Source of the DNA: an uncultured Lachnospiraceae bacterium
Lineage (GTDB): Bacteria; Bacillota; Clostridia; Lachnospirales; Lachnospiraceae
Reading direction: 5' to 3'
Assembly (NCBI GenBank): GCA_945949045.1
Contig: CAMFDG010000014.1
Span: 1-44,956 of the forward strand
Length of the DNA: 44,956 nucleotides
Shown: positions 1,437 through 44,956 of the stretch, one piece after another
Numbering within the stretch: the stretch's first letter is position 1
Layout of the letters: every line of letters begins with the position of its first letter
Notes under the pieces: generated by a model
Told to the model about the DNA's origin: nothing
Database searches by the model: none
What the model saw: only the letters and a program-made list of their open reading frames with translations
Position numbers and translations under genes: made by a program

Positions 1437-1720
1437 TGGGCGATGGAAGCATAGTTCTGTTTCTGTCGCCCTTTTTTCTGTGACTTTTCATTTTGCAGTG
1501 GGCGGAGGTCGCTTGGACGAACCTGCGTCGCCCATTTTTTTGAGTAATTATACATTCTTGTGGGCGGAGGAGAAGCAAATCAGCCCGTGAAGCCCAGTTT
1601 TCATATTTTAAACGAGTTTCGGTGGGCGGAGGAGAGAAGATTCAGTCCGTAAGGCCCAATTTGCATATCCCAAACGAATTCCAGTGGGCGGGAGAACTAA
1701 GATCCAGCATCTATCGCCCA
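1437..1720. repeat. Dyad array A1: five TGGGC(G)/(C)GCCCA units, exact 62-bp period
   Basis: Five units begin at 1437, 1499, 1561, 1623 and 1685, exactly 62 bp apart. Each opens with TGGGCG and ends 36 bp later with CGCCCA or GCCCA (the first ends TCGCCC followed by T), giving a dyad with about 24 bases between the arms. A 26-bp AT-rich linker follows; in the first two units it begins with a run of six or seven T. The inner bases are poorly conserved between units, except a GGAGGAGA stretch in units 3 and 4. No open frame explains the pattern. The same 36-bp span occurs in the arrays at 1876, 28432 and 44637. Confidence 0.85.
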
Positions 1721-1875: not shown

Positions 1876-2104
1876 TGGGCGTATGTGTCAGTTGCGTTTG
1901 CCCCACGCCCATTTTTCAGCATTTTATTACCGAAAAATTGCGTAATTGGGCGTGTAGATAAATAACTCAGTCTGCACGCCCACAGTTTCATTATTTCACG
2001 GGATGCAAACATCAAATTTTTCAGCCACGCCCAAAACATCAAATTTCAGACGAAAAATCGTAGTAAAATGGGCAGTGTGTTTTGGTTTTTCATATATATG
2101 CCCA
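1876..2104. repeat. Dyad array A2: units on a 71-bp spacing
   Basis: Clear dyads are TGGGCGT/ACGCCCA at 1876-1911, TGGGCGTG/CACGCCCA at 1947-1982 (71 bp later) and TGGGCA/TGCCCA at 2069-2104. A degenerate unit spans 1998-2033, where the right arm CACGCCCA is intact but the left arm is only CACGGGAT; it starts 71 bp before the last unit. Every unit spans 36 bp. The stem bases after TGGGC differ from unit to unit but stay complementary. The segment from 1721 to 1875 shows only a possible decayed unit and no gene. Confidence 0.75.
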
Positions 2105-2277
2105 AAGCGTTCAATAATTTTATATAGTGAAAATAAGTAACAGACAAGTAACAACTCCATTTAACCGGTATTTTCCGGCAGAAAAGCACTGTAAAGTGAA
2201 GCTTTTGATGAAGATTTTGATGAAAAGATGGGCATTTTCGATCATATATTGGTAGAAAGAGCTAACAAGGTGGTACT

Positions 2278-3871: not shown

Positions 3872-4819
3872 ATGGAGAAAAGGGTACAGTGGCATCCGGG
3901 CTTTTGCGCGGCCATGGAATTGGAACTCTGGGAGAACCATGGAGATTTGGAGTACGAGAGAGAGTATAATCTCAGCAGGAAACCGCTTCAGGCAGATTTA
4001 CTTGTAATTAAAAAGAAGCAGGAAACCACGATAAGCAATGAAATCGGGGCACTGTTTCGAAAGTGGAATATTATGGAGTATAAGTCTCCGGAAGATTCCA
4101 TGAACATTGATGATTTCTATAAGGTAAATGCTTATGCATGTTTGTTTAAGGCACAGGAGAGACAGATAAACAGCTGTCCGGCAGGGAATATAACAATTAC
4201 CATGATCAGACAGTCTTATCCGAAAGGTATGGTTCAGGCACTGGAGGAGGAAGGGTTTTCAATTACTGAGAGAAATAAAGGGATTTATGAGTTGCAGGGA
4301 AACCTTCTGTTTCAGACACAGATCATTGTATGTGACAGATTAGAGCAGACGGATCATGTATGGCTGCGTTCGTTGACGAACCGGATAGAACGGCAGGAGT
4401 TCGATACGCTTGTGGATAACATTATTCGCTTGAGGGAACCATACGAAAAGGAATGTGCGGATGCTGTTCTTGAAGTGGTGACAAATGCGAACTGGACGGA
4501 TATTGAAGAGTGGAAGGAGGATGTGATTATGTGCGAGGCGCTGGCAAGTATTATGGAGCCTGAGATTGAGAAGGAAAAAGAAAAAGCTAAGAAGGCTGGC
4601 TGGGCTGAGGGTCACGAAGAGGGTCGAGCACAGGGTCGGGCAGAGGGCCGGGCAGAGGGCCGGGCAGAAGGCCGGGCAGAAGGCCATGAAGAAGGGTGGA
4701 AAGAGGGCATCGAATTTGCTAAACAGGTCATAAAGCTGGATGCACAGGGGTATGATGCTTCTGAAATCGCTGAAAAAACCGGTATTACAGAACAGCAGAT
4801 TCGTGCAATTTTGGCATGA
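3872..4819 (+). CDS. PD-(D/E)XK nuclease-family (Rpn/transposase-like) protein with AEGR repeat tail
   Basis: The ATG has GAGGGGA upstream. The 315-residue product has an N-terminal region with the spacing of a PD-(D/E)XK core: E-rich helix, QADLLVIKK (first acidic residue), then NIMEYKSPED with the E-x-K pair near residue 69, then a YKVNAYACL helix. This is the pattern of the Rpn/PDDEXK transposase-like family common in Firmicutes, often mis-named in databases. Residues about 232-275 are a charged helical linker rich in EKEKAKKAGWAEGHEEG and AEGR repeats. The C-terminus (about 288-315, YDASEIAEKTGITEQQIRAIL) looks like a small helix-turn-helix motif. Rpn proteins are implicated in DNA cleavage and phage defence; activity of this copy is inferred only. 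It sits just upstream of the Wadjet operon. Confidence 0.7.
   Translation: MEKRVQWHPGFCAAMELELWENHGDLEYEREYNLSRKPLQADLLVIKKKQETTISNEIGALFRKWNIMEYKSPEDSMNIDDFYKVNAYACLFKAQERQINSCPAGNITITMIRQSYPKGMVQALEEEGFSITERNKGIYELQGNLLFQTQIIVCDRLEQTDHVWLRSLTNRIERQEFDTLVDNIIRLREPYEKECADAVLEVVTNANWTDIEEWKEDVIMCEALASIMEPEIEKEKEKAKKAGWAEGHEEGRAQGRAEGRAEGRAEGRAEGHEEGWKEGIEFAKQVIKLDAQGYDASEIAEKTGITEQQIRAILA
4621..4690 (+). repeat. In-frame 12-bp tandem repeat (AEGR coding)
   Basis: A unit close to GGCCGGGCAGAG is repeated about five times, coding for A-E-G-R. The copies are nearly identical, so the length of this stretch is likely to vary by slippage in steps of four residues without breaking the frame. Confidence 0.85.
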
Positions 4820-26805: not shown

Positions 26806-28332
26806 TTACAGAAGGATCAGTCCCTGGGTGAACTCATTGGAAAGCTGCCTGTGGCATCGGATGGAAGCGATGCCCCGGTATAGATCTGCGCAGTGGATAT
26901 CTTTCCGAAGCATGGCATACGCTTCTTCAGAGAGAATACGGGAAGCATCGGAAACCTTGGTGATCAGGGGGACCGAGGCTTCTTTTTTTATGGCGGAGAG
27001 CAGCCCGGCGGCGCTGTCCCGAAAGCCCAGTACCCGCAGATAACCTGGGGTTAACCATACACGATCCTTTGTGATACCCAGCAGGATATGGGTCAGTGCC
27101 CGGCAGACTCTGGTGTAGGTGATATCACGACTCTTAAGCAGCCCGGCAAACTGTGTGAAGCTTACAAATTCATCCAGCCGGTTTTGAATTTTGTTGGAGA
27201 GATCCCGGCTGCAGTCGGCAAAGGCCTCGTACCCGCTTTCTCTGCAGGCCCAGAGTCTGGTGTAAAGGGCAGCAGAGAAATCATCCTCCCAAAGCAGTGC
27301 CTGATGTTCCCAAGCGTCGCATAGTATGGAAAGGACGGAAGAGGGGACACTTCCGGCTAATTTACTTCTGATGTCTCTTTCGCTCTTGCAGGATTCCAGG
27401 GCTTCCCGGATGGCGGTGGCGGAAGCATATGCAGTGCCGGAATTGCAGTTGTCAGATGCAGAGCCGGCTGCAGGATCGCAGGAGACAGCGGAACTGCCGG
27501 TTGCAGCATCACAGGAGACAGAGGAACTGCCGGCTGCAGGATCACAGGAGACAGCGGAACTGTCGGCTACAGGATCACAGGAGACAGCGGAACTGCCGGT
27601 TGCAGCATCACAGGAGACAGCGAAACTGCCGATTGCAGGAATCAGCTCGCGGCTGTGATAACCGCCGCCAACCCGAAGAATCGGATGGGAGGCCAGCCTG
27701 TGGGGAATGCTGTGTGGCAGTGTGGCTAATGCCTTTTCGTATTCCAGAGCCAGGATATTGTTGGGAGAGGCGAGAAAATCCTCCAGTTCCCTGCCTGGGG
27801 GATAGTTTTCGGAAGAATCTGCAGATTTTCCGCTTGGATCAGAGTAAGCATGATCACAGGAAGACGGGAACCGTTCCGTATATAAAAGCCGAAGGACTCT
27901 GGCTCTGGCTGTGGGAAAGGAATCTCCGGCGGCCAGGCAGCCGCGGAGCTTTTCCTGATATTCCGGTGATTCCTCCGTCAGCAGGGACACAAGACCTTTC
28001 ATCAGGGCCGGCTGGAGGGTTTCACAGCCATAGCAGAGAACATCCACCACGCCGGTGGCCGCCAGCAGATTTACTCCGCCTTTTGCAAAAATCTCCGCGG
28101 AGGCGGTGGCGTAAACGGCCGGAAGCTCCAGCACCAGATCAGCGCCCTCAGATAAGGCCATCCGGGTGCGCCGGTATTTGTCTGTTAGGGCAGGGACACC
28201 CCGCTGCAGAAAGTCGCCACTCATGGCCACGATGATGTAGTCGGCGCCTGTCTCTTCTCTTATTTTATCCAATTGATATTTATGTCCCTTGTGAAAGGGG
28301 TTATATTCTGCTATCACGCCTGCAGTTTTCAT
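26806..28332 (-). CDS. tmcAL: tRNA(Met) cytidine acetate ligase (YlbM), with minisatellite insertion
   Basis: A 508-residue nucleotidyltransferase of the TmcAL/YlbM family. The N-terminus GVIAEYNPFHKGHKYQL carries the H14-x-x-H17 nucleotide motif, followed by MSGDFLQRG and the helix KYRRTRMALSEGADLVLELP. The ASATAIREAL segment and the C-terminal RxLTHILLG region are typical. It activates acetate with ATP to acetylate the wobble cytidine of elongator tRNA-Met. The family is usually near 400 residues; this one is longer because of a Ser/Ala/Cys-rich repeat at about 233-288 just before ASATAIREAL and an extra loop around 145-185. The frame stays intact, so the enzyme may be functional with a long loop. 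Confidence 0.9.
   Translation of the reverse strand: MKTAGVIAEYNPFHKGHKYQLDKIREETGADYIIVAMSGDFLQRGVPALTDKYRRTRMALSEGADLVLELPAVYATASAEIFAKGGVNLLAATGVVDVLCYGCETLQPALMKGLVSLLTEESPEYQEKLRGCLAAGDSFPTARARVLRLLYTERFPSSCDHAYSDPSGKSADSSENYPPGRELEDFLASPNNILALEYEKALATLPHSIPHRLASHPILRVGGGYHSRELIPAIGSFAVSCDAATGSSAVSCDPVADSSAVSCDPAAGSSSVSCDAATGSSAVSCDPAAGSASDNCNSGTAYASATAIREALESCKSERDIRSKLAGSVPSSVLSILCDAWEHQALLWEDDFSAALYTRLWACRESGYEAFADCSRDLSNKIQNRLDEFVSFTQFAGLLKSRDITYTRVCRALTHILLGITKDRVWLTPGYLRVLGFRDSAAGLLSAIKKEASVPLITKVSDASRILSEEAYAMLRKDIHCADLYRGIASIRCHRQLSNEFTQGLILL
27470..27634 (-). repeat. 33-bp in-frame minisatellite inside tmcAL (five copies)
   Basis: Five tandem 33-bp copies, each differing by one to four bases, encode an 11-residue unit close to S-C-D-P-A-A-G-S-S-A-V. 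A degenerate partial copy continues on the low-coordinate side. Because the period is a multiple of three, gain or loss of copies keeps the frame. Confidence 0.93.
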
Positions 28333-28431: not shown

Positions 28432-28608
28432 TGGGCGCTTTGTAAATGTTTTTTCCTATGCGCCCAAGATTTCAAAGTTTCAGGACTGTGACGGAAGAAA
28501 TATGGGCTAATAGAGAAAAAGTATAAGCCAGCGCCCAAAAAACAATGCGCTCTCGGTTATGACCGGAAAATTGTGGGCGCATGGAAAAAATGTTCACTGA
28601 AGCGCCCA
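28432..28608. repeat. Dyad array B: three 35-bp dyads on a 71-bp period
   Basis: Units are TGGGCGC/GCGCCCA at 28432-28466, TGGGC.../GCGCCCA at 28503-28537 and TGGGCGC/GCGCCCA at 28574-28608, exactly 71 bp apart. They share the TGGGC...GCCCA ends and the 35-36-bp span with the arrays near 1437, 1876 and 44637. The array lies between tmcAL and the ackA promoter. The rest of 28333-28717 holds no recognisable gene. Confidence 0.8.
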
Positions 28609-30921: not shown

Positions 30922-30940
30922 CTCTAATAGATGCAAAATG

Positions 30941-31013
30941 TATCAAGTTTTTCATGGAAAAACTTGATATGCAGCGTCGGTTCATTTGCCGTAGGCAAAT
31001 TCTGCATGAACCG
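30941..31013 (+). promoter_or_regulatory. Two stable hairpins in the plsX leader
   Basis: The first has a 13-bp perfect stem, 30941-30953 with 30957-30969, and a 3-base loop. The second pairs CGGTTCAT (from 30977) with ATGAACCG (to 31013), with an inner TTTGCC/GGCAAA stem. Neither has a T-run, so they are not intrinsic terminators. The second ends about 9 bases before the AAGGAGG of plsX. No FapR-type operator was recognised. Confidence 0.6.
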
Positions 31014-31036
31014 ATGTTCAAGGAGGACTTTCAAAT

Positions 31037-44202: not shown

Positions 44203-44433
44203 ATGAAAGAGTTAGTGGAAGTAATTGCAAAGGCACTCGTTGATTCGCCGGAGGAAGTCGTTGTGACAGAGACCGAGAGCGAAAAGGGTACCATTCTGGA
44301 GCTGCGCGTTGCCCAGTCCGATATGGGCAAGGTCATCGGAAAGCAGGGGCGTATCGCCAAGGCAATCCGTTCCGTCGTTAAGGCAGCGGCCTCCAAGGAA
44401 GACAAAAAAGTAATCGTCGAGATTATGCAATAG
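44203..44433 (+). CDS. khpA: KH-domain RNA-binding protein KhpA (YlqC)
   Basis: A 76-residue single KH-domain protein with the GKVIGKQGRIAKAIR loop (G-x-x-G type) near 45-60. It forms the KhpA-KhpB RNA-binding pair in Firmicutes and is usually encoded between rpsP and rimM. TTGGAGGTGTG precedes the ATG. The TAG overlaps the start of nested palindromic repeats. Confidence 0.95.
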   Translation: MKELVEVIAKALVDSPEEVVVTETESEKGTILELRVAQSDMGKVIGKQGRIAKAIRSVVKAAASKEDKKVIVEIMQ

Positions 44434-44555
44434 CTGCGGTAAGGAGGGGCCCGCTTGCGGGAGGATTCCTTATCGCTAAAGCTGCGGTAAGGAGGGACCC
44501 GCTTGCGGGAGGATTCCTTATCGCTAAGACTGCGGTAAGGAGGATTCCTTATCGC
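44433..44555. repeat. Nested palindromic tandem repeat after khpA
   Basis: Two 48-bp copies (44433-44480 and 44481-44528) and a third shortened to 27 bp (44529-44555). Each unit folds: GCGGTAAGGA pairs with TCCTTATCGC (one mismatch or G-U) and the inner CCCGC/GCGGG forms the tip; the third lacks the inner part. No gene is present. Confidence 0.88.
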
Positions 44556-44636: not shown

Positions 44637-44956
44637 TGGGCGACAGAGCCGGAATCCCGTGTGAATCGCCCCCGGTAAGCCAAAGAAATGCCGGAAAATG
44701 GGCGCTAGAGCCGGAACCCCGTGTGTATCACCCCCGGTAAGCCGAAGAAACGCCGGAAAATGGGCGCTAGAGCGAAATCCCGTGTGAATCGCCCAAGATA
44801 AGCCGAAGAAGAGCCGGAAAATGGGCGCCAGTGCGAAATCCCGTGTGAATCGCCCCCGGTAAGCCAAAGAAATGCCGGAAAATGGGCGCTAGAGCCGGAA
44901 CCCCGTGTGAATCGCCCAAGATAAGCCGAAGAAGCGCCGAAAAATGGGCGCTAGAG
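44637..44956. repeat. Dyad array C: five full and one partial unit, 61-62-bp period, running off the window
   Basis: Units begin at 44637, 44699, 44761, 44822, 44883 and 44945. Each has TGGGCG near the start and (T)CGCCC about 30 bases later, ending a 35-36-bp core, then a 26-bp linker with AAGCC(A/G)AAGAA and (G)CCGGAAAA. Here the linkers are conserved too, so this copy is a younger tandem expansion than array A1. A minus-strand frame through it is only a repeat artefact. Confidence 0.9.

Follow-up and report, generated by a model that had tools for sequence, protein, structure and literature searches.

The TGGGC arrays of an uncultured Lachnospiraceae bacterium, including the array A1 in the 44,956-nucleotide stretch of DNA analyzed here (the window), are probably cis-acting binding-site arrays for a member of a family of nuclease-type proteins of about 260 amino acids. 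About half of the examined members of this family adjoin a detectable array, each with its own box of 5 to 7 bp. Genes and arrays are partners whose specificities match, and the helical geometry is rigid. Binding of the protein to its array would be the simplest account of these observations.

The window carries the following features of this type:

1437..1720, no strand assigned: array A1, five 36-bp dyads (TGGGCG...GCCCA) starting at 1437, 1499, 1561, 1623 and 1685, with 26-bp linkers and a period of exactly 62 bp.
1876..1982, no strand assigned: two more 36-bp dyads (1876-1911 and 1947-1982) separated by a linker of 35 bp.
1903..2114, minus strand: a copy of the dispersed element R1, containing the dyad 2069-2104.
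28432..28608, no strand assigned: the middle array, three 35-bp dyads starting at 28432, 28503 and 28574 (linkers 36, period 71), with a HIGH nucleotidyltransferase gene on one side and acetate kinase on the other.
44637..44956, no strand assigned: array A2, with units at 44637, 44699, 44761, 44822 and 44883, a cut one at 44945, and a period of 61-62 bp.

An earlier, sequence-only reading had described A1 as five units placed exactly 62 bp apart, and both the positions and the spacing are confirmed. The TGGGC...GCCCA ends given there are exact (TGGGC(N26)GCCCA) in units 2-5, whereas unit 1 ends in GCCCT, a single mismatch. Its view that interiors and linkers have diverged while box and phase were kept also agrees with the data, as the ungapped pairwise identity of the 62-bp units is 27-34/62, except for units 3 and 4 (46/62), and the units are without any indel. 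Within the window, 11 places match TGGGC(N26)GCCCA with at most one mismatch, compared with a mean of 1.67 and a maximum of 5 in 100 dinucleotide shuffles. The picture of one five-unit array was nevertheless incomplete, given the dyads at 1876, 1947 and 2069, two further arrays in the window, and linkers of 16 and 36 bp.

Several other elements lie near these arrays. A phage-integrase-family gene (PF00589; 2477-3532) adjoins A1, and no sign of its action on the array was seen. Tandem repeats are present at 4602-4695 (12 bp, within the open reading frame 3872-4819), at 27463-27640 (33 bp, 5.4 copies, within the HIGH nucleotidyltransferase gene 26806-28332, where they form a repeated peptide insert), and at 44432-44543 (48 bp, immediately after khpA and ahead of A2). 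Positions 30939-31021 hold a different dispersed repeat, of the AGCGTCGGTCCAT...ATGGACCGATGTTC type, that is common to loci L018, L023 and L150; a similar tandem repeat occurs at L055, in another Lachnospiraceae genome. A2 itself sits downstream of ffh, rpsP and khpA. Downstream of khpA at 27 loci of relatives, no TGGGC dyad was found within 1.2 kb (or to the end of the locus). RimM is recognizable at 12 of these 27 loci, where the khpA-rimM gap measures 63-210 bp in 11 cases and 979 bp in one; in the window genome the gap is at least 523 bp, array included.

The whole-genome pattern search proposed in the sequence-only reading returned 81 exact TGGGC(N26)GCCCA places in the 2.16-Mb draft genome and none for the reversed pattern. 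Distances between half-sites were tabulated over 165 kb of sampled stretches of this genome, which were selected by the TGGGC pattern itself. In this sample, TGGGC is followed by GCCCA at 30 bp (56 cases) or 31 bp (54), and GCCCA by TGGGC at 21 (11), 31 (30), 40 (11), 41 (28) or 42 bp (4), with all remaining distances below 60 bp occurring at most three times each. The spacing test gave a similarly quantized rather than random outcome for the 94 linkers of 34 clusters, which measure 16 bp (12 linkers), 25-26 bp (36) or 35-37 bp (42), with four others (12, 18, 31 and 41 bp). Because 90 of the 94 fall at 16, 25-26 or 35-37 bp, the linker classes put the half-sites on one helical face. Of the 110 sampled dyads, 109 are intergenic, although a simple gene caller labels 71% of the sequence as coding. 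The clusters lie between tandem (18), convergent (9) or divergent (3) genes or at an edge (7).

Some arrays resemble recent tandem copies. In L019, L027 and L032 the linkers are symmetric (26-36-26), as if one unit consisted of four dyads, and the periods of G021 (81-52-81), L070 (82-52-81) and L241 (51-82-51) have a similar symmetry. The element R1 is about 231 bp long and carries four dyads with linkers of 35-16-35, some of them degenerate. Its copies were aligned from ten places of the genome, some of them partial, and are about 70-91% alike at different sites. The R1 ends resemble one another in inverse orientation, and no target-site duplication was noticed in the alignment by eye. At L149 and L153, where contigs C7 and C17 end, arrays with a period of 51 bp (35-bp dyads, 16-bp linkers) extend almost to the contig ends, and a further gene copy may reside in the gap. 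Among the 35-bp dyads of the genome, the match between left and right arms at positions 8 and 12 is poorer than for shuffled arms. The inner motif seems to be offset by one base between the arms, and the two half-sites may be nonequivalent.

The A-tracts of the linkers hold a helical phase to the dyads. The best period is 10.0 bp for 104 TGGGC dyads of the window genome and 10.25 bp for 221 dyads at 31 loci with other boxes, values that none of 2000 shuffles reached in either sample; 132 random positions show nothing, with 835 of 2000 shuffles reaching their value. AAA/TTT peaks are found at 0, about 20, 30 and 40 bp from the center of the TGGGC dyads, with none at 10, and at 0, 10, 20-21 and 30-31 bp in the other-box set. 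The boxes are centered about 15.5 bp from the dyad center, which is half a turn off. Phased A-tracts make curved DNA, and from this established behavior we infer that the array DNA is intrinsically curved. The earlier suggestion of phased sites for a cooperative DNA-binding protein is supported at the level of the DNA by half-site distances, A-tract phase and an adjoining protein family, which imply binding that may be cooperative.

This protein family emerged from genes adjoining array loci of different genomes. A pattern scan of 84,980 species genomes gave at least 106 loci, of which 80 were used for linker analysis and 34, from Lachnospiraceae, for comparison of neighboring genes. Among the matches listed, one family was common to 6 of the 34 loci, and its gene was later counted at 8 of the 106 listed. 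The proteins are about 260 amino acids long and carry a C-terminal PD-(D/E)XK-type domain. Sequence searches against Pfam, NCBIfam, PHROGs and PDB found no credible family or relative. The C-terminal part resembles the PD-(D/E)XK end of PDC-S68 (E values of 4e-26 to 1e-31; the best model in 7 of 7 members), and this resemblance is confined to the nuclease part. In 20 members, the SK.E, YE, PDF and WEH.G motifs are invariant and a lysine lies 17 residues after that E in at least 90%. Conserved acidic residues and an E-x-K-type motif are thus present, with a residue other than lysine at the third E-x-K position.

A protein search of 60 relatives found matches in 20 genomes. No member was found in the window, but four matches exist in its genome:

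Contig C33: a member with a TGGGC array alongside (linkers 35-26-36-26-26-36).
Contig C3: a member flanked on either side by GGGACA arrays; C7, C29 and C69 carry additional GGGAC arrays.
Contig C5: a member with a GTAATC box and a period of 73 bp.
Contig C54: a fragment at the contig edge, with a TGGGCG box and a period of 71 bp.

Judging by dyad length and linkers, A1 would correspond to the C33 array and the middle array to the C54 array. Arrays beside other members keep this geometry but have different boxes (GGGACA, GGGGTA, GTTGAC and so on).

The association of gene and array was assessed by a scan that selects the best box per locus and counts linked dyads of 6-mers, tolerating one mismatch and any of 18 linker lengths. 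Individual loci with few links are therefore weak, and the controls were scanned in the same way. This statistic replaced a less specific one based on exact 5-mers, by which three was reached at 21 of 55 gene loci and also at 2 of 20 controls, and was then applied to new loci. Among 45 loci obtained by protein search (excluding eight chosen for their arrays and two second fragments, with five genes not fetched), 21 have at least three linked dyads and 24 fall below. A class-wide search, with matches in 36 of 293 genomes, supplied a hold-out set of 29 loci. Fourteen of these loci reach three linked dyads and 15 do not, with a split between those scoring above 170 bits (13/19) and weaker ones (1/10). 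In a second set, 10 of 20 loci reach three, including five of nine in genomes that were not picked for arrays. None of 47 controls (20 arbitrary stretches and the 27 khpA loci) does so, these being drawn from the genus of the window, whereas other genera and families contributed many of the hold-out loci. Fisher tests against the controls give p values of 1e-8 (45 loci), 1e-7 (hold-out) and 7e-7 (second set).

The spacing series recurs in gene loci where the box was picked without using the period. Same-strand distances are 50-55, 62-66, 70-73 and 81-86 bp in 14 loci. In a separate tabulation of 10 loci they are 52-54, 61-63, 73, 78 (once) and 82-84 bp, with 43 of the 128 distances coming from the single locus L297. 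This locus, in G239, has the longest array seen, in which 28 ACGGAC dyads surround one gene at a spacing of about 53 bp.

The only control with two links, L233 of genome G034, carries the box of the family gene of that same genome. The gene-side box, CGGGT, matches ten places of the single 3.6-Mb contig of G034 (10 in forward and 8 in reverse orientation; control 0), of which one lies beside the gene, one had already been seen as L233, and eight are new. All of these arrays have 36-bp dyads and 15-bp linkers, although linkers of 13-43 bp were allowed. Genome G076 (L337) matched the reversed control pattern at 17 forward and 17 reverse places, which fits a CGGGTA array there; a family member, its reading frame broken by one stop, was then found beside this array, whose period is 61 bp.

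The more alike two proteins are, the more alike their boxes tend to be (Mantel r=0.42, p=0.0002, n=37 loci, four of them chosen for their arrays). The two nearest protein pairs, L295/L298 and L207/L211, share the same box within each pair, and among 31 protein pairs at 45-60% identity only 13% have a similar box. Paralogs differ in box within G000 (TGGGCG, GGGACA and GTAATC), G012, G013, G017 and G026. The gene is present in 7 of 7 genomes chosen for arrays versus 6 of 19 without TGGGC arrays (p=0.0026). Within the genus it is present in 4 of 4 genomes with TGGGC arrays versus 14 of 31 without (p=0.058), which weighs against the preferred reading.

A three-box pattern matches 14 of 60 relatives, and beyond one or two stray matches these amount to four genomes of the same genus (G010, G011, G012 and G021), with 3-25 matches compared to 248 in the window genome; the control gives 0 or 1 match per genome. 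Of 299 genomes sampled from the bacterial family, 35 match, mostly singly, and six others were judged by eye to hold real arrays. In the scan of 84,980 genomes, among the matches listed, Lachnospiraceae linkers are mostly 35-37 and 15-20 bp, whereas in other phyla linker lengths are spread out. The 48 listed loci from outside Lachnospiraceae include four linkers at 37 bp and four at 18 bp with a 35-bp first dyad, and the three such loci that were read (L036, L050 and L108) look like low-complexity or coding repeats. Weak or partial relatives of the protein occur in seven plasmid records, most of them annotated as AAA ATPases, and in two phage records. On viral contigs no relative was confirmed; an unverified contig of 4.2 kb labeled "Bacteriophage sp." matches over 89% of the query and has no array under the scan. 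A two-unit pattern matches nine viral contigs, presumably by chance.

At 11 loci compared, the gene-flanking arrays are direct repeats in eight cases and inverted in one, with no match in two. The direct repeats span about 100-350 bp and are up to 92-93% alike. Of the 278-bp repeat that flanks the C3 gene, 233 bp can be aligned with the GGGAC array on C29. At an orthologous site in two species of one genus, upstream of a gene that we take to be rimP, the sequences differ in length by 202 bp, made up of 43 bp outside the array and 159 bp (3 × 53 bp) inside. Identity at this site is 96% over the right flank versus 85% over the stretch with the gene.

A different explanation, which we regard as unlikely, is that a host nucleoid or regulatory protein with a preference for curved DNA uses the arrays as its sites, with the nuclease-type gene a passenger inserting alongside. 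Phased A-tracts and 10-bp quantization would suit any follower of curved DNA, and the clusters sit in ordinary intergenic gaps, where the orientations of the genes do not clearly depart from the background. However, a single common factor fails to explain boxes that differ among the G000 paralogs and follow protein similarity. Rather less likely is neutral debris, in which old tandem duplications and dispersed MITE-like elements have merely inherited their phase. The divergence among R1 copies and the arrays that look recently duplicated are compatible with such an origin, but A1 units with as few as 27-34 of 62 identical positions have kept their length, the difference between the two species equals three whole periods, and independent box families have a common geometry and A-tract phase. 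A defense or restriction-like module, whose array would be a decoy or self-mark for the nuclease, is improbable: although the C-terminal domain is like the end of the large candidate defense proteins PDC-S68, the likeness stops at the nuclease part, and many solo chromosomal arrays would be unexpected for such a system.

We consider a role as RNA hairpins or bidirectional transcription terminators marginally less probable than a defense function. The sequence-only reading had left room for an RNA role on the basis of T-runs, which are real after A1 units 1 and 2 and accompany GC-rich inverted ends; in addition, 9 of the 30 clusters having both neighbors lie in convergent gaps, versus 11 of 65 background gaps. 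These T-runs begin about 17-18 bp from the dyad center, where the phased A/T tracts peak, and thus need not be terminators. The spacing of hairpins should not follow helical-turn steps, and the clusters also occupy tandem and divergent gaps. An Rfam search of the window gave no match, and compensatory pairing past the box is absent in 35-bp dyads (n=31 distinct), where inner bases pair no better than with shuffled partners. There is little in 36-bp dyads (n=31), where position 7 alone pairs above shuffled (p=0.015; positions 6 and 8, p=0.09 and 0.05). The RNA role is weakened accordingly. Least probable of all, and by our estimate very improbable, is a genuine REP/BIME family with a RAYT (HUH) transposase as its enzyme. 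Intergenic clusters of palindromes, a flanked gene and co-variation do correspond to the RAYT organization as described in PMC2817692. In contrast, PF01797 (Y1_Tnp), which matches in 5 of 14 control genomes, has 0 matches in the window genome (80% complete), the array-adjacent family lacks a Pfam Y1 domain, and the flanking arrays are mostly direct rather than inverted.

Binding-site arrays for the nuclease-type protein remain the reading that we prefer, and several known systems provide points of comparison. In REP/RAYT systems, according to PMC2817692 and PMC8266576, intergenic palindrome clusters occur genome-wide and a nuclease-type gene is flanked by cognate, co-evolving repeats. The arrays described here are likewise dispersed over the genome and regularly spaced, with a box that co-varies with the protein. 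The differences are substantial. The enzyme is of the PD-(D/E)XK rather than the HUH type, stem covariation past the box is slight, sites are quantized at about 10 bp on A-tract DNA, and flanking arrays are mostly direct whereas a REPtron gene is flanked by inverted cognate repeats. Furthermore, no common GTAG/CGTC foot is apparent by eye in 37 arm consensus sequences; L209 contains CGTC, and L213 has GTAG at a more internal position.

Two PADLOC candidate defense proteins, PDC-S68 and HEAT_CxxC_PDDEXK, have a similar C-terminal PD-(D/E)XK-type domain, but the PDC-S68 models span about 1200 positions, whereas the present family has about 260 amino acids, another N-terminal part, and arrays alongside. 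The 36-bp palindrome-edged repeats, 26-36 bp apart, recall CRISPR arrays. Unlike those, the repeats differ from each other, have a few set linker lengths and are dispersed over the genome; no Cas models are among the PADLOC matches of the array-adjacent family. Phased A-tract DNA in general shares the A/T tracts at a period of about 10 bp, with boxes half a turn away, but here the tracts go with dyads whose box is member-specific and with an adjoining gene family. A literature search, covering subscription journals and preprints only slightly, recognized no matching system.

We propose that the protein would bind the boxes, probably through its N-terminal part, which we would guess from the sequence pattern to be the DNA-reading region. 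Dimers on each dyad would then all face the same side of the intrinsically curved DNA. With less confidence, and by analogy with RAYT/REP, we suggest that the nuclease domain makes cuts in or close to the array, and that these cuts cause the array to expand and spread. Solo arrays would be nonautonomous copies, or leftovers of recombination between flanking direct arrays. In its working, such a system would be REP/RAYT-like but built on an unrelated enzyme. We liken it to a REPtron without classing it as one, since both the RAYT enzyme and the tag were tested for and not found.

It is about an even chance that these components define a new class of element in Clostridia. Such an element would comprise a small PD-(D/E)XK-type protein and a private box of 5 to 7 bp in helically phased, curved palindrome arrays. 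Direct array copies would surround the gene in LTR-like fashion, the box would diversify among paralogs, and tens of solo arrays would serve as binding platforms across the chromosome. The arrays may also account for breaks in assemblies, as the window contig ends within A2. For the study of protein alignment on curved DNA, they offer a natural series of about 2, 3, 4 or 5 helical turns between sites. The pairing gives an uncharacterized protein family a function that can be tested and a specificity code that can be read, represented by 37 box-protein pairs. A partnership of protein and repeat of this kind appears to be new among bacteria and, if the reading is true, it would constitute a second, independent route, beside RAYT/REP, by which a bacterial nuclease can own and spread extragenic palindromes.
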